Source: Asaia prunellae JCM 25354
Lineage (GTDB): Bacteria; Pseudomonadota; Alphaproteobacteria; Acetobacterales; Acetobacteraceae
DNA: 37,828 bases
Reading direction: 5' to 3'
Assembly: GCF_000613885.1 (NCBI RefSeq)
Contig: NZ_BAJV01000020.1
Location: forward strand, 1 to 37,828
A program made the position numbers and the translations under genes. The stretch's first letter is position 1. Each line of letters begins with the position of its first letter. Positions 7,079-29,116 of this stretch are shown here, in pieces. Below the pieces are notes generated by a model. The model did no database searches. It was not told where the DNA came from and saw nothing but the letters and a program-made list of their open reading frames with translations.

Positions 7079-7410
7079 GCGCCCTGGGTAAGCGCTTGTT
7101 TCGGCATTGGTCCAATGCGACCGATCAGTGCCCCCATTATAGGCGCGCAGGCGTCCGGCACGTTGCCATAATGGTCGAGATGCTGGCTCAGAAGATTGGC
7201 AGCGCCATAAATAGACTGCACAGGGTCCGAGGCGTCCACGCCCAGACGACGCGCCGTATCGGGCATGATTTGCATCAGTCCCGTTGCCCCAGCTCGGCTG
7301 CGTGCTTTCGGATCTCCGCCGCTCTCGGCCATCATCACAGCCCTGATGAGAGCGGGTTCGACATTGAACCGACGCCCAGCGTCCTCGATCGTGTCGCTAT
7401 AATCGGCCAT
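6991..7410 (-). CDS. Lytic transglycosylase (SLT) domain, N-terminal part of the gp16-like protein
   Basis: Residues 1-85 hold the SLT goose-lysozyme-like fold: ALIRAVMMAESGGDP with the catalytic Glu, then GATGLMQIMPDTARRLGV. Such domains open the cell wall during DNA ejection. After HYGNVPDA the frame turns to nonsense, while another frame continues with RAYNGGTDRSHW, the expected AYNGG motif. A deletion of one C (GCCCTG to GCCTG, at 7150-7151) explains this. The ATG at 7410 shares bases with the stop of the gp20-like gene. Confidence 0.85.
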   Translation of the reverse strand: MADYSDTIEDAGRRFNVEPALIRAVMMAESGGDPKARSRAGATGLMQIMPDTARRLGVDASDPVQSIYGAANLLSQHLDHYGNVPDACAPIMGALIGRIGPMPKQALTQGAWHLFIRPPLAPKAPLTWLRNRKSRSRPA

Positions 7411-8957
7411 CAGCGCGGCGGCGTCACAAGGCCATGGTCAACGGCGCCTTGGACCTGCTCATAGAACTGCGCCCGCTTGGCCGTGTCCCATCCTTTCATC
7501 ATGGTCGTGCGCTGCTGCGGCGTCATGAGATCGAACGCATAAACACGGGGGTCAACATGCGAGGACCATTCTGCTGCATAAGACGGCCACTCGTTCGCGT
7601 GTAGCTGAGACTGCCCGCCTGGATATTTCTGATTAAAGCCAAGAAGAGCGGCCTGGTTCTGACGGTCGAGAGCAATGTTCGCCTTGACTACATCTTGTGC
7701 TGCGAGATTGCTGATATGGGTCGAAGCGTTCCCGGACAGAGCGGTTGAAAGACGCTCATTGCTTCCTGTTGCGCCCGGCTGTGCCATGGCCATCTGCGTG
7801 AGGTATTTATTCGCCTCATCGTAAGCGCGCGTCGTGTCGCTTGGTGCAGTGAAGCCCAAGGTCTGGGCATAGCTGACGATCTGGTTTCTCCCCTCGCTGC
7901 CGGGGCCTGTGCCGGTCGGACCCAGCTTTTCGAGGGCAGAGAGAGCCGCACGCGATTGATATTGACGCTGTGCGAACCCTGCTGCGCTCTGGTTTGCCGC
8001 CGCATATTGTGCGCCTGCTTCGTGTCCTGCCGACTGAGCCGCTTCTGCCTGACCGGGGGCAAGCCCTGTTTCCATTGAGTGAGGGGGCGGTGCGCCATTC
8101 CCGTCCTGCGATGCAACCCCGCCATAGCGCCCGCTATTCCAAGGGTAGTTCTCGGCACCGTGGGGGAGCTGCCCTTGCGCATTGGTCTGACTGACAGGGG
8201 CTGGAGATACGTTAAGACCATTGGCTTGCATGACGGCACCGACCGTAGTGATGTGCTTTTTCCCATCATCACCGGTGTATTCATAAGGGTGAGAGAGGAA
8301 TTCAGGACTCAGGTTTTTTGGTGCTGCCTGTGTTGCGCTGAAACCGCCGCCCTGCATCGCAGATTTGCGCGTACCAATGAGGTTAGCATTCCCTGTGTCC
8401 ATGCTATCGTTAGTGCCATAGACGTTCTGTTCTTGCCCCTGCGGCGCCTGCATCGAGTTGGTAATCTGCGCCACGCCGCCAGCAATGCCGTTTGGATGGC
8501 TCCCGATCTGCTGCACGATTGCATCAACCTGGCCCCATTGGCTTTTCGGCAGCACAGCCTTGGCCATGCGAGCGCCTGCGTCCAGATGGGCCGCGTCAGG
8601 ATTGGCGCCGACAAAAGACATGATGGAGCCTACAGCATTTTTCGATGCTTCAGCATTGGCCAGATCGTCATTGCGTGACGCATTTTGCTGCCGGTAGGCA
8701 TCAATGGCTCCATATGCTGTCGCTGGGTCGGCAGCCATGGCCGCGCGCGCCTTGGCGTAATCAACCTGACCATCAGCGCCGGTCGCGCCCAGCAAGGCGC
8801 TCCCTTGAGCTACGCGGGCATCATATTCGGTTTGCTGCACCCGGTTGGCGAGTAGTGCATTCTTTATCTGCGCCGCCTGACCGGCCATTTCGAGCGGGTT
8901 GGCCGTGTGAAGTGGCGTAGGTTGGAGCGCGTTCGTATCAAAGCCAGAGAATGCCAT
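7410..8957 (-). CDS. gp20-like ejection (internal virion) protein
   Basis: A 515-aa protein rich in Ala, Gln and Gly, largely helical with low-complexity parts. It sits between the gp7-like and gp16-like genes, exactly where P22 places gene 20. It should be packaged in the head and injected with the DNA, probably helping to build the channel through the envelope. The N-terminal LEMAGQAAQIKNALLANRVQQ helix is typical of such proteins in related phages. The call rests on order and composition. Confidence 0.65.
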   Translation of the reverse strand: MAFSGFDTNALQPTPLHTANPLEMAGQAAQIKNALLANRVQQTEYDARVAQGSALLGATGADGQVDYAKARAAMAADPATAYGAIDAYRQQNASRNDDLANAEASKNAVGSIMSFVGANPDAAHLDAGARMAKAVLPKSQWGQVDAIVQQIGSHPNGIAGGVAQITNSMQAPQGQEQNVYGTNDSMDTGNANLIGTRKSAMQGGGFSATQAAPKNLSPEFLSHPYEYTGDDGKKHITTVGAVMQANGLNVSPAPVSQTNAQGQLPHGAENYPWNSGRYGGVASQDGNGAPPPHSMETGLAPGQAEAAQSAGHEAGAQYAAANQSAAGFAQRQYQSRAALSALEKLGPTGTGPGSEGRNQIVSYAQTLGFTAPSDTTRAYDEANKYLTQMAMAQPGATGSNERLSTALSGNASTHISNLAAQDVVKANIALDRQNQAALLGFNQKYPGGQSQLHANEWPSYAAEWSSHVDPRVYAFDLMTPQQRTTMMKGWDTAKRAQFYEQVQGAVDHGLVTPPR

Positions 8958-19571: not shown

Positions 19572-20936
19572 TCAGAGCGCCGCCCAGCCAGACGGGCCGC
19601 CGATAACGGGCGAGGTTCTTGGCGCCTTCGGAGGGGGTATTTTCGTCCGCTCACGCAGCCCAACCGCGAGATAGCGGAACGCATCCGATCCATGCGAAGC
19701 CCAGTCATGCACGGGGGCAGCCTTGAATTGCGCCAGCTTATCGTTCCATTCGCGTCGATAATTCGTCAGACACTCGACGCCACGCTTGCATTTCACCTCA
19801 TCAAACCAGCACCGGGCGAGGAACAGGCGAACGGCATTGATTCCGTCATCCACACCGATCTGTGGCACGATCCGCACCTTGCGCCCGTTTGCTCGTGCGA
19901 TTTCCTCACGCGTCTTGCCGGTGCCCAGCTCGCGCGCTCTGGCATCGTGCGGAAACAGATCCTCCGCATACCGATATCCGCGCCCGTCAAGCCACTGGCA
20001 GTAGTGCGAAATCGCCTCGCCACTCGCCTCGTAATAATCGATCAGATGGATTTCACGTCCAACGATCTGGGCGCACCAGAGCGCCATACTGTCAGCAATA
20101 CCCAAGTCCCAGGCGACGTACACCGGCACCGATGGATCGTATGGCACACGGCACAAGCGCGGCTGCTCACCGCCTTTGACGGCGTCCATTTCCGCCTTGT
20201 AAATCGCCCCCGGAACGTCAAGCACATCCCACCTCCCATCAAGCAAGGCCCGGCGCTGCATTTCCGGCATGGTTGCGAGATTTGCCCGGTATTCAAGGTC
20301 TATGTACGGATTGTCAGTTACGCGAGCGCCGATAAAGCGCCGCCGCGTAGTGATCGTCTGTCCCTCAATCTCGACAGAGGAAGCCGAGCATGTGTCCCGC
20401 CCGTCATCAGGGATAGACCAGTATTGCTGCACCCATTTCGAGCCGATACCGCCCGGATTGCAGTTTGCCCGCATGAGCCGCTTGAGGTTCGTTCCTCGCA
20501 GTCGTGAGCGGAGGTATGTCCAAACGAAATCCGATGGGTATTGAGTCAATTCCTCAACACCGATCCACTGGAATTCCTCGCCTTGGAACTGGAATACATC
20601 GGCATCGCGTTCAGCATAGCCCATAATGATTTTGGCGCCGGACGGAAAGCGGAACTCGTGCTTCTGCTCGTTCCACGCCACGCCTTCCAATCCCTGAATG
20701 GACGGATACAGAGCCCGTGCACGGTCGATCACTTCACGTAACTGCTGATAGGACCGGCGAAGGATCAGGGCCTTGTAACGAGGCACCAGAGGCGCGTTCT
20801 GCCACAGTCCGAGAGCGTCCACGATGAATGCGTCTGTCTTCCCGCCACCAGCCGCACCGCCGTAAAGAACTTCCTCTTCCTCGGCTGCAAGAAAAACCTG
20901 CTGCCGGTCGGTTGGCGACCAGACAATGTTCGTCAC
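19572..20936 (-). CDS. Terminase large subunit
   Basis: The packaging motor and headful nuclease, 454 aa. The ATPase domain has Walker A GGAAGGGKT (residues 26-34) and a Walker-B-like hydrophobic run ending in two acids (WIGVEEL, Glu128/129). The C-terminal nuclease domain begins near VYVAWDLGIADS, whose Asp should bind metal. It overlaps the putative small subunit gene by ATGA and precedes the portal gene, the standard order. Confidence 0.92.
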   Translation of the reverse strand: MTNIVWSPTDRQQVFLAAEEEEVLYGGAAGGGKTDAFIVDALGLWQNAPLVPRYKALILRRSYQQLREVIDRARALYPSIQGLEGVAWNEQKHEFRFPSGAKIIMGYAERDADVFQFQGEEFQWIGVEELTQYPSDFVWTYLRSRLRGTNLKRLMRANCNPGGIGSKWVQQYWSIPDDGRDTCSASSVEIEGQTITTRRRFIGARVTDNPYIDLEYRANLATMPEMQRRALLDGRWDVLDVPGAIYKAEMDAVKGGEQPRLCRVPYDPSVPVYVAWDLGIADSMALWCAQIVGREIHLIDYYEASGEAISHYCQWLDGRGYRYAEDLFPHDARARELGTGKTREEIARANGRKVRIVPQIGVDDGINAVRLFLARCWFDEVKCKRGVECLTNYRREWNDKLAQFKAAPVHDWASHGSDAFRYLAVGLRERTKIPPPKAPRTSPVIGGPSGWAAL

Positions 20937-24695: not shown

Positions 24696-24949
24696 GCTCG
24701 TGCTCCTTCCGCGAATTCCTCGATCATGGGCGGCTTGCCCTCGCAGCCAGTGCGCGCCCATTCGCGACGGGCTGCCCGATAGGCGGCCTCGACTTCAGGC
24801 GGATGCTGCGAAGCCGTTGGTCTGGCCACCGCCTGCACGACGCACTCGTCGTTCCATCGCTCGCCGTTGAGCCAGGTGGCCGGGTGGGGGCGGAAGTCCT
24901 GCCCGTTGCGGACGTTCTCGCCAAAGGGCCATGATGCGACCGCCCGCAT
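24692..24949 (-). pseudogene. Displaced C-terminus of the replication protein
   Basis: MRAVASWPFGENVRNGQDFRPHPATWLNGERWNDE is the usual last domain of DUF1376-type replication proteins (FxPHPATWLNxxRW). In the same frame upstream lies RKDGKASARRAYDKARKKIGHAA, so the ATG at 24949 is internal, not a start. Two missing bases in the middle of the gene moved it out of frame. Confidence 0.82.
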
Positions 24950-25865
24950 GATCGCAGCATGGCCGATCTTTTTCCGGGCCTTGTCGTAGGCCCTTCGAGC
25001 CGATGCCTTTCCGTCCTTGCGTGGGTAGCTGTCCAGAATTCCTCGAAGTCTCTGGCTGGTCCTTCCGTCTCGCTTCCCGGATTGCCGCTTTCGTCTGTTT
25101 CGAGATCCAGCGTCGGTTCGTCCTCAAAGGGACTATAGGGTTATATGCTTCTGCTTCTGCTTCTTGGTGTTTAAGGTCGGAATTTGCTTTTCCATCGTGT
25201 CGGAATGATCCGACACCAACCCCTAGGTAGGGGTCGGAAGGATGGGACCAATCTTTCCGCGCCCTAGCATGATTGCACGCCGCGCAGGCTGCTACGAGAT
25301 TGGATTCATCGTTCGATCCGCCGTCGCAAACCGGCTTCAGATGATCGATGTGACAATAATCCGGCCCGGCCTGTCCTGATATGCGCAGTTTGACGCCGCA
25401 CCAGAAGCATTTTCCATTACTTCGGGCGATGATCCGCTTTGTCTTCTCAGGGCTGTCTGATTTTCGATATGGTCGGACACGCTCAGATTTTGGAACTGAT
25501 CCGCGCCGCAAAAGTGGATTTCCTCCCTCGGTCCCATTTGCTGAAGCTTCATCGGAAATGGCCTTATCCCTGACCATGCGACGATTGAAGATTGTCCCAT
25601 CTTCCGAGCGGCTAAATGCGCCTGCTTCCTCAAGCTCTGAGAGGCAGGAAGTCAGTTCATCCACGCTCGCGCCACACACGGCCGCGAGTTGTCGCTCAGT
25701 CGGCCGGCGCCCGTTGACGAGCAAATGACCGCACGGCTCTGCATCGAACATGATCGCCAAAAGGTCCATCCAGATGCCTCGTGCGGCTGGTGAGCACATG
25801 CGCAATGCTGGGTCGCGCTGCCAGTCCTGCCACCACCATTTTGTCCATCGCCTTGCCGTGCTCAT
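24795..25865 (-). CDS. Phage replication protein with internal HNH domain (C-terminal part frameshifted)
   Basis: The first ~115 residues resemble DUF1376/replisome-organiser proteins (WWWQDWQRDPALRMCSPAARGIWMDLL, a winged-helix pattern). Residues about 142-210 are an HNH endonuclease with two CxxC zinc pairs (CFWCG, CAACNHAR) and the core CHIDHLKPVCDGGSNDESNL. From about residue 242 the written frame is wrong. One missing base near 25139 and another near 25028 restore SPFEDEPTLDLETDESG, then DFEEFWTAYPRKDGKASARRAYDKARKK and the ending at 24692. The protein probably loads DnaB at the origin. Confidence 0.78.
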   Translation of the reverse strand: MSTARRWTKWWWQDWQRDPALRMCSPAARGIWMDLLAIMFDAEPCGHLLVNGRRPTERQLAAVCGASVDELTSCLSELEEAGAFSRSEDGTIFNRRMVRDKAISDEASANGTEGGNPLLRRGSVPKSERVRPYRKSDSPEKTKRIIARSNGKCFWCGVKLRISGQAGPDYCHIDHLKPVCDGGSNDESNLVAACAACNHARARKDWSHPSDPYLGVGVGSFRHDGKANSDLKHQEAEAEAYNPIVPLRTNRRWISKQTKAAIREARRKDQPETSRNSGQLPTQGRKGIGSKGLRQGPEKDRPCCDHAGGRIMALWRERPQRAGLPPPPGHLAQRRAMERRVRRAGGGQTNGFAASA

Positions 25866-26197: not shown

Positions 26198-26464
26198 TCA
26201 CATCCCAAGCGCACGACGGTAGATATCAAGAAGCGTTTCCTGCTCCTCAATTTCGTTCGGCTCTTTCTTGCGGAGCTTGATTATGTTCTTGATGGTTGCG
26301 ACATCGAAACCTGCCGAGCGGGCTTCGGCAAAAATATCCTTGATGTCACCGGCGAGGGCTTTCCGCTCTTCCTCAAGTCTCTCAACTCTTTCGATCACGG
26401 AACGGAGACGGTCCACGGCGATGCCGCCCACGTTGTCGCTGTTGTGACCTGTCATATCGCTCAT
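26198..26464 (-). CDS. GapR-like nucleoid protein (DUF2312)
   Basis: 88 residues. The core DRLRSVIERVERLEEERKALAGDIKDIFAEARSAGFDVATIKNIIKLRKK is the GapR signature. Cellular GapR of alphaproteobacteria clamps overtwisted, AT-rich DNA ahead of forks and stimulates topoisomerases. A phage copy may serve phage replication or alter host chromosome structure. Its ATG overlaps the methyltransferase stop (ATGA). Confidence 0.88.
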   Translation of the reverse strand: MSDMTGHNSDNVGGIAVDRLRSVIERVERLEEERKALAGDIKDIFAEARSAGFDVATIKNIIKLRKKEPNEIEEQETLLDIYRRALGM

Positions 26465-27612
26465 GGGGTCAGCCCTTCGTCTTGCATGTCGGCGATTGCG
26501 CCGAGGAATTCCGTGATGAATTGCGCCGCGACCTGGGGTACGATTGCATTGCCGTAACCGCGCAGGCGTCCCACTCGGGCGGAAATCCCTGTAGCCAGCG
26601 GCTGTGTGCCGGGTTCAACTGGCCTGAACTTGCCGTCGCGGCATCCGAGCCAGTCAGCACCTGACCAGAAGCCGTGATGCGGATTGGTCCTGGATGTTCG
26701 GACCAGCCTCCGGCCGAGGTCATCCGCGCCTCCATCGCTGTGCCGATCTCGCGCCCATTTCTCATGCGCTTCTCGATCGCCGGTGGTGTGGCATCCAGCT
26801 TGTCGCCATCTCTCGCGAGAGGGGTGTGCCAGCCCGATAGCCGCACCTCCCGACCCAGCAGACTGTTCGTCGGCACGTTCGGGCATTCCTGCCCGTCCTT
26901 GTGGTCGCGTGTTGTGGGAGTGGGCCAGCCCGCACGCTGCGCCGCCATGTTCAGCGTCATGTTCGGAGCAAACGGGTTGTATTTCTCGCCGCGCTCTGAG
27001 TCTGTCTTCGTGGGCGTCGGCCATCCTGCCGTCTTGGCTTGCCCTGCAAGGGTACGAAGCCCGCGTGCTGTCTCTGGCTGGTTGAACACGTTGCAGGTTG
27101 GCGTGTTCCAGCCTGACCGCTCCGAAGAACAGTCGCTTGCGGATATGCGGCGCGCCGACGCTACAAGCTGGCAATACTGCCGCCCCGCAGGCGTAGCCGC
27201 ATCCTTCCAGCGTATCGAATAGATCATCGAGCCAGCCGACCCGAATTGCTGCCTCAACCTGTTCCCCAAAAATGAGCCCAGGCTTGCACTCGCGGATGAG
27301 TTCGAGCCAGACGGGAGCAAGGTGCCGATCATCAGCCTGGCCAAGCCCTTTTCCAGCAACGGAGAAGGGCTGGCAGGGCGGTGATCCGGTCCAGATGCCG
27401 GGCGTTCCTTCAAGTCCTGCCCAGCGCAGGGCGAGCGGCCATCCGCCGATGCCGGCAAAGAAATGGCACTGGTCGAAGTCTCGCAGATCGTCCGTCCGAA
27501 CATCTCCGATTGACCGGGTATCGACCGACCCGGAGGGCAGATGACGTCCATTGATGAGTTCGCGCAGCCATGCTGCCGTGGGTTCGTCCCATTCATTGTA
27601 GAGGACACGCAC
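26461..27612 (-). CDS. C5 cytosine DNA methyltransferase
   Basis: 383 aa from GTG 27612. The C5-methylase motifs appear in order: FAGIGG (52-57), TGSPPCQPFSVAGKG with catalytic Cys80, GEQV (117-119, for the usual ENV), GAPHIRKRLF (about 153-162), a variable target-recognition region with repeated GLAHS/GLAHP blocks, and RLRGYGNAIVPQVAAQF at the C-terminus. No restriction partner is near, so it is an orphan enzyme, probably protecting phage DNA. The stop overlaps GapR's ATG. The same DNA is open in a second frame (26469-27617). Confidence 0.88.
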   Translation of the reverse strand: MRVLYNEWDEPTAAWLRELINGRHLPSGSVDTRSIGDVRTDDLRDFDQCHFFAGIGGWPLALRWAGLEGTPGIWTGSPPCQPFSVAGKGLGQADDRHLAPVWLELIRECKPGLIFGEQVEAAIRVGWLDDLFDTLEGCGYACGAAVLPACSVGAPHIRKRLFFGAVRLEHANLQRVQPARDSTRASYPCRASQDGRMADAHEDRLRARREIQPVCSEHDAEHGGAACGLAHSHNTRPQGRAGMPERADEQSAGSGGAAIGLAHPSRERWRQAGCHTTGDREAHEKWARDRHSDGGADDLGRRLVRTSRTNPHHGFWSGADWLGCRDGKFRPVEPGTQPLATGISARVGRLRGYGNAIVPQVAAQFITEFLGAIADMQDEGLTP

Positions 27613-27617
27613 GTCAT
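26469..27617 (-). CDS. Overlapping second frame across the methyltransferase gene
   Basis: A 382-codon frame, +1 relative to the methyltransferase, covers almost the same DNA. Its ATG (27617) overlaps the upstream stop by ATGA and has GAGGGGGCGG before it, so it is better placed than the methyltransferase GTG five bases later. The product has repeats SGWNTPT, AGWPTPT, AGWPTPTTRDHKDG, SGWHTPLARDG, a block TPAGRQYCQLVASARRIS and an end LNPAHSRWLQGFPPEWDAC. From memory these resemble a recurrent family of unnamed phage proteins. Whether it is translated is unknown. Confidence 0.45.
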   Translation of the reverse strand: MTCVSSTMNGTNPRQHGCANSSMDVICPPGRSIPGQSEMFGRTICETSTSAISLPASADGRSPCAGQDLKERPASGPDHRPASPSPLLEKGLARLMIGTLLPSGSNSSASASLGSFLGNRLRQQFGSAGSMIYSIRWKDAATPAGRQYCQLVASARRISASDCSSERSGWNTPTCNVFNQPETARGLRTLAGQAKTAGWPTPTKTDSERGEKYNPFAPNMTLNMAAQRAGWPTPTTRDHKDGQECPNVPTNSLLGREVRLSGWHTPLARDGDKLDATPPAIEKRMRNGREIGTAMEARMTSAGGWSEHPGPIRITASGQVLTGSDAATASSGQLNPAHSRWLQGFPPEWDACAVTAMQSYPRSRRNSSRNSSAQSPTCKTKG

Positions 27618-27808
27618 TCCGCCCCCTCGATAAATTCGTAATGCACGGACACGACGCGGCGCAGGCCAGCGGCCTTGAGAACCTTTTCTGACAGGGGTTT
27701 GTCAGCGTTGCGCTGCTGGTGGAGCGTCTGGCGCTTGATGCCAGCGGCGCGGGCTGCGGCGGCTTCGCTTGGGAAACTGTCAGCCCATCGCCTGACAATT
27801 CCGATCAC
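27614..27808 (-). CDS. Small helix-turn-helix-like protein
   Basis: From GTG 27808 the 64-aa protein reads IVRRWADSFPSEAAAARAAGIKRQTLHQQRNADKPLSEKVLKAAGL, an XRE-like helix-turn-helix followed by a short beta tail (VVSVHYEFIEG). It may be a small regulator. The frame stays open far upstream, but that part overlaps the restored C-terminus of the previous gene, so the GTG is preferred. It ends with an ATGA overlap to the next gene. Confidence 0.55.
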   Translation of the reverse strand: MIGIVRRWADSFPSEAAAARAAGIKRQTLHQQRNADKPLSEKVLKAAGLRRVVSVHYEFIEGAE

Positions 27809-27834
27809 GTCCGCTTCTTCCAGCCGGTTACGCC

Positions 27835-27962
27835 TTACTTGGCGGCGTTCCGGTCGGCCCAGGCCATCATGCGAAGCGCAATGCTGTTGAGCCGGTCCGA
27901 GGCCCATTTCAGACAGAGTGCGGATTGTAGAAGGATGCAGGCGAGCCACTGGATTTCTGCGG
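27835..27962 (-). pseudogene. Displaced C-terminus of the 28325 gene
   Basis: Helical tail AEIQWLACILLQSALCLKW, then ASDRLNSIALRMMAWADRNAAK and stop at 27835. It continues the upstream protein after restoring one base at 27960 and ends shortly before the likely start (27808) of the next gene. Confidence 0.65.
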
Positions 27963-28325
27963 CTTGCCGGTGGATGAACCAGCGCATTCATTGTCCCATC
28001 TTTCGGATAGATCGCGATACAGCGCGGCCTGGTGTTCGGCTCTGCGTCTGGCGCGGTCGAGGTGGTGCCGATAGGCAGATTGGACGGCCAGAAAGACGTG
28101 GGCCGGGATTGCCGACCATTCGCCGTAAAACAGCCGTTTGACTTGTCCGTCCGTAAGCCCGGTATCCCTGGCAGCACGGTGGAATTTCTGTTTGCGTGGG
28201 GTGGCGTCGTGGCCGCTTTCGACCATCTCGCGCACTAACCCTGAGCAGTATTCGGTCACGGCTTCTGGTGTGAATTGTCCACAACTTTCCGCCGTGGCGG
28301 AAAAGATTTCCGTCATTTTGAACAT
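27909..28325 (-). CDS. Unknown phage protein (C-terminus frameshifted)
   Basis: From ATG 28325 (TTGGAG ribosome site) a protein with a helical N-terminus and TGLTDGQVKRLFYGEWSAIPAHVFLAVQSAYRHHLDRARRRAEHQ, which looks DNA-binding. After SSTGKP the written frame gives a short meaningless tail. The -1 frame gives AEIQWLACILLQSALCLKWA and ends MMAWADRNAAK at 27835. One lost base at 27960 explains it. Joined length is about 163 aa. Confidence 0.65.
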   Translation of the reverse strand: MFKMTEIFSATAESCGQFTPEAVTEYCSGLVREMVESGHDATPRKQKFHRAARDTGLTDGQVKRLFYGEWSAIPAHVFLAVQSAYRHHLDRARRRAEHQAALYRDLSERWDNECAGSSTGKPQKSSGSPASFYNPHSV

Positions 28326-28597: not shown

Positions 28598-29116
28598 TCA
28601 GACGACGCCAGACGCGCCAGGTTGGTATCGCTTTGACGCCATGCGCGGCACGAAAGATGCATCCAAGTTACGATGCATTTTATGGTGATTTGCATGGCAA
28701 GAAACGCAGAGCCAGCGGACGTCTAACGGATTGGAATAATCGTCGTGATGCGCTTGGACCTTCTTATCTCCGCAATTCTCACACGGGCATTTTTTGAGTT
28801 TTCCATCCCGCACGGCATTGCTTACTTGGATATGAGCCGATCTCTTCTGAGGATTTTTCTTTTCCCACACCTTTTTCGCCTCGTTCCCGGCGTCAGGCTT
28901 GGCAGTCGCATACGCCTGGCGTGCGGCAATCCGCTTTGGGTCATTTGCGCGCATCCGATCATAAGTGCGGTAATATTCTGCACTTGCCATGCGAACGTTT
29001 TTTGCGTCCGCTTTCGTGCATTCTTTGCATTTATTCAGATGGCCATCAGCCATTTGCGAGTGTGCGTAGAATTCGCTCAACGGGAGATGCCGCGAGCATT
29101 TGAAGCATTGCTTCAT
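28598..29116 (-). CDS. HNH endonuclease with extra zinc motif
   Basis: 172 aa. The N-terminus has two cysteine pairs (CFKCSRHLPLSEFY ... CKECTKAD), a zinc module often fused to HNH proteins. The C-terminus has CPCENCG, VQAHHDDYSNPLDVRWLCVSCHANHHKMH, the HNH catalytic His and zinc-binding Cys. A strong AGGAGG precedes the ATG. It may be a free-standing homing-type nuclease. It is not disrupted. Confidence 0.82.
   Translation of the reverse strand: MKQCFKCSRHLPLSEFYAHSQMADGHLNKCKECTKADAKNVRMASAEYYRTYDRMRANDPKRIAARQAYATAKPDAGNEAKKVWEKKNPQKRSAHIQVSNAVRDGKLKKCPCENCGDKKVQAHHDDYSNPLDVRWLCVSCHANHHKMHRNLDASFVPRMASKRYQPGASGVV

Follow-up and report, generated by a model that had tools for sequence, protein, structure and literature searches.

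Overlapping reading frames at a methyltransferase locus probably encode two halves of one C5 DNA methyltransferase

The methyltransferase locus of the window (the whole stretch of DNA analysed, 37,828 nucleotides of contig NZ_BAJV01000020.1 from Asaia prunellae JCM 25354) very probably encodes one C5 DNA methyltransferase as two polypeptides, with the large domain in one reading frame, A, and the small domain in an overlapping frame, B. Both frames are open on the minus strand, and B is the +1 frame of A:

26461 to 27612, minus strand: frame A, C5-methyltransferase large (catalytic) domain with motifs I-VIII and a candidate motif X, 383 aa, GTG start
26469 to 27617, minus strand: frame B, +1 relative to A, 382 aa, ATG start; proposed as the small domain, with a cassette array and a candidate motif IX
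27614 to 27640, minus strand: purine-rich site and ATGA overlap between the stop of the upstream ORF and the ATG of B, read from the sequence

Frame A runs from its GTG at 27612 to a stop at 26461 and frame B from its ATG at 27617 to a stop at 26469, the GTG of A lying 5 bases past the ATG of B. The TGA of an upstream ORF (27614-28177) overlaps the ATG of B as ATGA, preceded by gagggggcgga. The original prediction had described two full-length open frames sharing the methyltransferase gene, with ATGA coupling and a purine-rich ribosome site for B; the coordinates and frames were reproduced, and both start features are seen in the sequence. It had also put same-strand shadow frames elsewhere at no more than about 95 codons, a figure exceeded by the coat-like gene below and by the minus-strand gene 7410-8957, whose +1 shadow of 206 codons is second only to that of the methyltransferase among the 16 genes checked. 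The shadow frames of three other genes (gene names from the first reading) are:

19572-20936: TerL-like gene, shadow frame reaching 85 codons
17313-19529: portal-like gene, shadow frame of 79 codons
14975-16285: coat-like gene, shadow frame of 106 codons

The same locus is present at 100% identity in an IMG/VR contig, and the window lies within a 3.18-Mb bacterial assembly. A downstream ORF (26198-26464) starts within the stop of A; in Komagataeibacter phage phiKX1 the ORF directly after the end of A carries the annotation UPF0335 protein. HNH-like cysteine/histidine patterns can be made out by eye in two ORFs close to the methyltransferase, 24795-25865 and 28598-29116.

Frame A carries the catalytic large domain of a C5 methyltransferase. 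It matches PF00145 in Pfam (1.5e-16, residues 75-178) and phrog_363 (1.6e-76, residues 4-378), and residues 45-172 match motifs I-VIII in a profile of 19 canonical methyltransferases (E 9.9e-19). Residues 50-165 are taken to hold motifs I to VIII.

27118 to 27465, minus strand: region of A (residues 50-165) holding motifs I to VIII; profile match, with AlphaFold pLDDT blocks of 84-96 except three of 61-74
26479 to 26577, minus strand: candidate motif X of A, residues 346-378; weak local match to canonical motif X, with AlphaFold helices at 346-354 and 359-378

When the C-terminal part of A is cut out it aligns with motif X (template 360-385) at E 0.0053 and an HH-suite probability of 7%; with the full profile the match has E 0.033. 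No motif IX was found in A by comparison with the 19 canonical enzymes, so the earlier statement that A has every C5-methylase motif does not hold; in a single-chain enzyme motif IX would share a chain with I-VIII, and here it is the best match of B. The AlphaFold model of A (mean pLDDT 67) is mostly confident over the large domain and confident in the C-terminal helix, with pLDDT below 50 in the middle (residues 179-195 and 208-313), and its best Foldseek match is M.HhaI (E 1.1e-8, TM-score 0.31/0.36). Several residues of A between 316 and 342 are nearly invariant.

Database searches with both translations, as originally proposed, placed A in PF00145 and phrog_363 and left B without a Pfam family, B matching phrog_1008 (5.6e-34) and phrog_31772 (8.5e-29), both labelled DNA methyltransferase; sequence searches of B against Pfam, NCBIfam, PADLOC and the PDB returned nothing. 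With the C-terminal part of B cut out, its best local match is motif IX (template 341-359) at E 0.0018 and an HH-suite probability of 15%, or E 0.016 with the full profile. The places matched by motif IX in B and motif X in A are adjacent on the canonical template (341-359 and 360-385). The proposed assignment of IX to B and X to A is supported, if weak when taken alone.

26571 to 26618, minus strand: proposed motif IX of B, residues 334-349 (LNPAHSRWLQGFPPEW); weak best local match

The last W of this proposed motif is kept in 52 of 53 loci; its first W and its G are partly demanded by the pattern with which loci were picked. A stronger link, judged by profile matches, is a single-chain methylase of Mycobacterium phage Chanagan, in which residues 5-286 match the A family, phrog_363 (1.6e-61), and residues 192-285 match the B family, phrog_1008 (1.5e-31, profile 224-324; the B of the window reaches 289). 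At the level of profile similarity, this bridge makes the C-terminal part of a single-chain phage methylase a homologue of the B family.

Other phages carry the two families in further arrangements. Gordonia phage Float294 has gp62 of the A family and gp61 of the B family (4.8e-51) in the +1 register, with gp61 ending, by eye, in a motif X of its own, and the annotated internal gene of the methyltransferase of Paenibacillus phage Shelly is a B (phrog_1008, 8.2e-74). AlphaFold modelled B alone at low confidence (mean pLDDT 56, pTM 0.27), with a confident helix and hairpin at residues 108-157, and the model had no match in the PDB at E <= 0.001.

Ahead of the proposed motif IX, B is built from short repeated units:

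26619 to 27110, minus strand: stretch of B with four WxTP cassettes and a tail ahead of motif IX, over which A is mostly of low confidence; cassettes, codon-position test and AlphaFold model of A

Among 125 B proteins, 410 WxTP units were found by pattern at a median spacing of 34 residues, 21 of them being a hairpin that precedes the array and not cassettes; tandem short units of this kind are what multispecific methyltransferases have. Similar cassettes stand at different positions in loci whose catalytic-domain identity is as low as 46-51%; clusters were formed by single linkage, and the largest of them, with 135 units, is probably held together by chaining through a shared tail. The window and locus L018 are 93.5% identical in catalytic DNA and 95.9% identical in IX-X DNA, yet three of the four cassettes have no counterpart (best 0.35-0.45), a combination of high flanking identity and unmatched cassettes that points to exchange; loci L027 and L029 differ in the middle cassette of three. 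Such comparisons show, by alignment, that cassettes have been exchanged between close relatives. By analogy with multispecific phage methyltransferases, the cassettes, of about 34 residues, are probably target-recognition units, and the reading of the middle of B as an array of exchangeable putative units is new here.

When the synonymous codons of A in the window are shuffled, 35 of 20,000 shuffles match the observed 380-codon +1 run (null mean 214); from this one locus, that is suggestive against chance, not decisive. The decisive test is family-wide: over 49 distinct loci from an A-driven scan (window included), in whose finding B had no role, the +1 run averages 267 codons vs 138 after shuffling and reaches p<0.05 in 46 of the 49, whereas the +2 frame of the same loci averages 61 vs 73 and reaches p<0.05 in none. 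A set of 62 distinct loci of mixed origin (the same 49 with 4 more found by a B-driven scan, plus 9 phage records taken from both searches, without L010-L012, which repeat L017-L019) gave +1 means of 281 vs 146 shuffled and +2 means of 66 vs 75.

The control comprised 30 methyltransferase loci from related genomes, namely 15 canonical, 7 of the two-frame type and 8 without an ORF matching the A profile. In the 15 canonical single-chain enzymes the +1 run is 31-164 codons long and does not exceed that of the shuffles; one of them, L188, stands out for a +2 run of 279 codons (p 0.02). The B profile matched in six of the seven two-frame loci, L199 being the one without, and L205 showed no +1 excess (p 0.63).

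A scan with the B profile found at least 600 matching stretches; 593 of the 600 listed encode a relative, and the best 80 were kept. Together with 6 cellular loci found via A, 78 viral loci from these best 80 of at least 600 matches make up a set of 84, not deduplicated, in which both ORFs are present in all 84, B is always in the +1 frame and the overlap spans 611-1182 bases. A single locus of these 84 (L114; 78 of the set again from the best 80 of at least 600 B matches) has an internal stop in A, and A has no stop across the cassettes in 77 of the 78 B-found loci (from the best 80 of at least 600). With the B protein fixed, about 4.4 of 120 loci would be expected to keep A free of stops across the cassettes by chance; these 120 were preselected for intact frames, so their zero cassette stops are by construction. 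The N-terminal half of B, over the catalytic part of A, is open in 113 of the 120 vs 23 expected, in part a result of how loci were chosen.

The original prediction had named stops in many relatives together with unreduced synonymous variation as the pattern that would speak against it; a frame is disrupted in 5 of the 62 distinct loci (L044, L051, L053, L056 and L077), and synonymous variation in A is reduced. L033 has stops within the first half of B. By eye, six of nine further phage records (L080-L088) have both frames open, one is single-chain (Chanagan), one is split (Float294) and one, Pseudomonas phage PACT201 (L086), appears disrupted.

Several loci depart from the common layout in other ways. 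In L051, L056 and L077 the frames appear to swap within the cassettes, and the open run that begins as the first half of B ends in the motif X of A; L060-L062 and L079 have run lengths like theirs. Frame A is unusually long in L002 (543 codons), L065 (630) and L013 (526), with a long stretch ahead of motif X. By eye, B of L013 (1501-2997) extends past motif IX into an HNH-like region rich in cysteine and histidine; A remains open as far as motif X, and this second domain seems to overlap A as well.

Selection was compared frame by frame in closer, alignable pairs (15 for the cassettes, 22 for the catalytic stretch and 23 for the IX-X stretch). In the cassette stretch, differences at A codon positions 1/2/3 are 0.211/0.105/0.124, so that changes fall mainly on position 1 of A, which is position 3 of B; protein identity there is higher for B (0.834) than for A (0.744), and change at four-fold sites is 0.071 for A and 0.171 for B. 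In the catalytic stretch the positions of A differ at 0.141/0.106/0.269 and identity is higher for A (0.833) than for B (0.690). The IX-X stretch is equally conserved in both (A 0.787, B 0.786).

A looser test used 25 independent pairs, distant ones included, from 53 of the 62 loci; it dropped L013, L014 and L050 (missed by the pattern), L059 (at a contig end) and the five disrupted loci. Four-fold change in A is 0.438 before the overlap; inside it the values are 0.300 (catalytic stretch), 0.166 (cassettes) and 0.109 (IX-X stretch). In the cassettes this test shows no first-position excess in A (position 1 above position 3 in 11 pairs, below in 11, with 3 ties); distant cassettes align poorly there.

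The comparison of codon positions and synonymous sites in both frames, which the original prediction had called for, thus finds reduced synonymous change in A and cassettes under the constraint of B. As judged by these substitution patterns, both frames are shown to be conserved and under selection, and B is not an accident of A. The idea of a conserved dual-coding locus is supported, with both frames conserved, reduced synonymous change, stop avoidance (in loci preselected for intact frames) and a clean control; its other part, an unknown protein beside a complete enzyme, is not, since no motif IX was found in A, the middle of A is of low confidence, and B matches motif IX weakly and, through its family, the C-terminal part of a single-chain methylase.

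Candidate starts for B lie near the start of A. An ATG in the B frame at +70 to +135 of A is present in 135 of 143 distinct loci, preceded by ggaggt in L019 and L171; B is open to within 40 bases of the start of A in 29 of the 143, and 6 have neither this nor such an ATG. At the window, +91 of A reads ata, B is open upstream to a first ATG over the upstream stop, and there is also an ATG at +109.

We propose that frame A would give the large domain, with cofactor binding and catalysis (I-VIII) and a C-terminal helix bearing motif X, and that frame B would give the small domain, with tandem WPTP cassettes as recognition units followed by motif IX. Single-chain enzymes have their small domain placed after motif VIII and before motif X; with that domain in the +1 frame, A would have to cross its DNA out of frame to reach motif X, which would explain both the near-complete overlap and the filler-like middle of A. 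The two chains would then combine to form the active enzyme, whose probable role is to mark the DNA of the phage or prophage and so shield it from restriction, and swapping cassettes would alter which sites are marked. That B is translated, that the chains assemble and methylate DNA, and that this protects from restriction, is inferred here from sequence.

Precedents exist for parts of this arrangement. M.EcoHK31I recognises YGGCCR, and Lee, Kam and Shaw are reported to have found in 1995 that the two EcoHK31I genes share DNA read in different frames, with both proteins required. The multispecific C5-methyltransferases of Bacillus subtilis phages SPR and phi3T are single chains with several short recognition units in a row; the cassettes resemble them as short units in a row within the variable region, and differ in that the array would sit on a chain of its own, read in another frame.

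M.EcoHK31I and M.AquI are described as two-polypeptide C5 enzymes in PMC3404938, which gives M.EcoHK31I a large subunit with motifs I-VIII and X, a small subunit with motif IX, and a predicted recognition domain in the larger subunit. PMC5944983 reports efficient complementation by enzymes that were cut in two between motif VIII and the recognition domain. The locus has the motif layout of M.EcoHK31I, with I-VIII and X on the large chain (A) and IX on the small chain (B), an assignment in which the matches to IX and X are each weak on their own (E 0.0018 and 0.0053; 15% and 7%) and gain backing from the Chanagan bridge. Unlike M.EcoHK31I as described there, the recognition-like array would lie in B. 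Like M.AquI, the enzyme is split within the variable region into two chains, and Float294 gp62/gp61 resembles the AquI layout; unlike M.AquI, whose motif X is on the small subunit, motif X here appears on A, and the two genes must therefore overlap. The labels of phrog_363 (A) and phrog_1008 (B) say DNA methyltransferase and are silent on overlapping halves. Among the titles and abstracts listed in searches of the open-licence literature, none described this overlap in phages.

That A is the only gene, B being open as a by-product of codon usage and composition, is scarcely credible. The GC content of 0.63, the want of a Pfam or NCBIfam family for B, the shuffles that reach the run at the window and the looser test without a first-position excess would all fit it, but alignable cassettes evolve under the constraint of B and not of A, no +2 excess appears in the 49 loci and no +1 excess in canonical methyltransferases, and relatives of B form the C-terminal part of a single chain (Chanagan) and a gene of their own (Float294). 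A programmed frameshift that fuses motifs I-VIII of A to the cassettes and motif IX of B in one chain is highly improbable; the order of the parts in the DNA is indeed that of a single-chain enzyme, but a frameshift leaves unexplained why B is open, with start codons, far upstream of the junction (the ATG at +70 to +135 in most loci), and motif X would require a second shift back.

It is decidedly unlikely that B is a separate protein with a function of its own, for example counter-defence, overlapping the methyltransferase by chance. In its favour, and against a split enzyme, the N-terminal half of B is kept open, which a bare small domain would not need; the confident helix and hairpin at 108-157, the extra C-terminal part in the B of L013 and the want of a recognised fold for B alone also fit. 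Against it stand an A in which no motif IX was found and whose middle is of low confidence, the match between the B family and the C-terminal part of the Chanagan methylase, and the finding of no B without A among the 84 loci (78 from the best 80 of at least 600 B matches), and B would be better explained as the other half of A's enzyme. Less easily set aside, though still unlikely, is a variant of that split-enzyme explanation, whose odds overlap with it, in which A chooses the sites, B gives only motif IX and the cassettes are not recognition units. The account of M.EcoHK31I in PMC3404938 and the nearly invariant residues of A between 316 and 342 agree with this variant, but the middle of A is of low confidence and changes faster than B in alignable cassettes, and the cassettes are exchanged between relatives.

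The preferred reading, one enzyme in two frames, may extend well beyond this locus. At E 1e-5, a search of 50,697 phage records finds B-like stretches in 213; both frames are listed in the records of K1G and Xanthomonas phage PhiXhv-5, and other records list only A, only B, or pieces. We lean slightly towards the view that a large and seemingly unrecognised class of phage methyltransferases is split by frame at the domain boundary, with the +1 frame holding shuffling recognition cassettes. Cassettes would be exchangeable only if open in both frames, so that one DNA would serve as a specificity store in one frame and a linker in the other. If true, phage genes annotated as complete cytosine methyltransferases would be half enzymes, and +1 frames now ignored or called "hypothetical" would be the other half. 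The family would also be a well-conserved case in which two same-strand genes overlap almost completely and the overlap has an explanation, and methylome sequencing could reveal the target sites of its naturally exchangeable cassettes.
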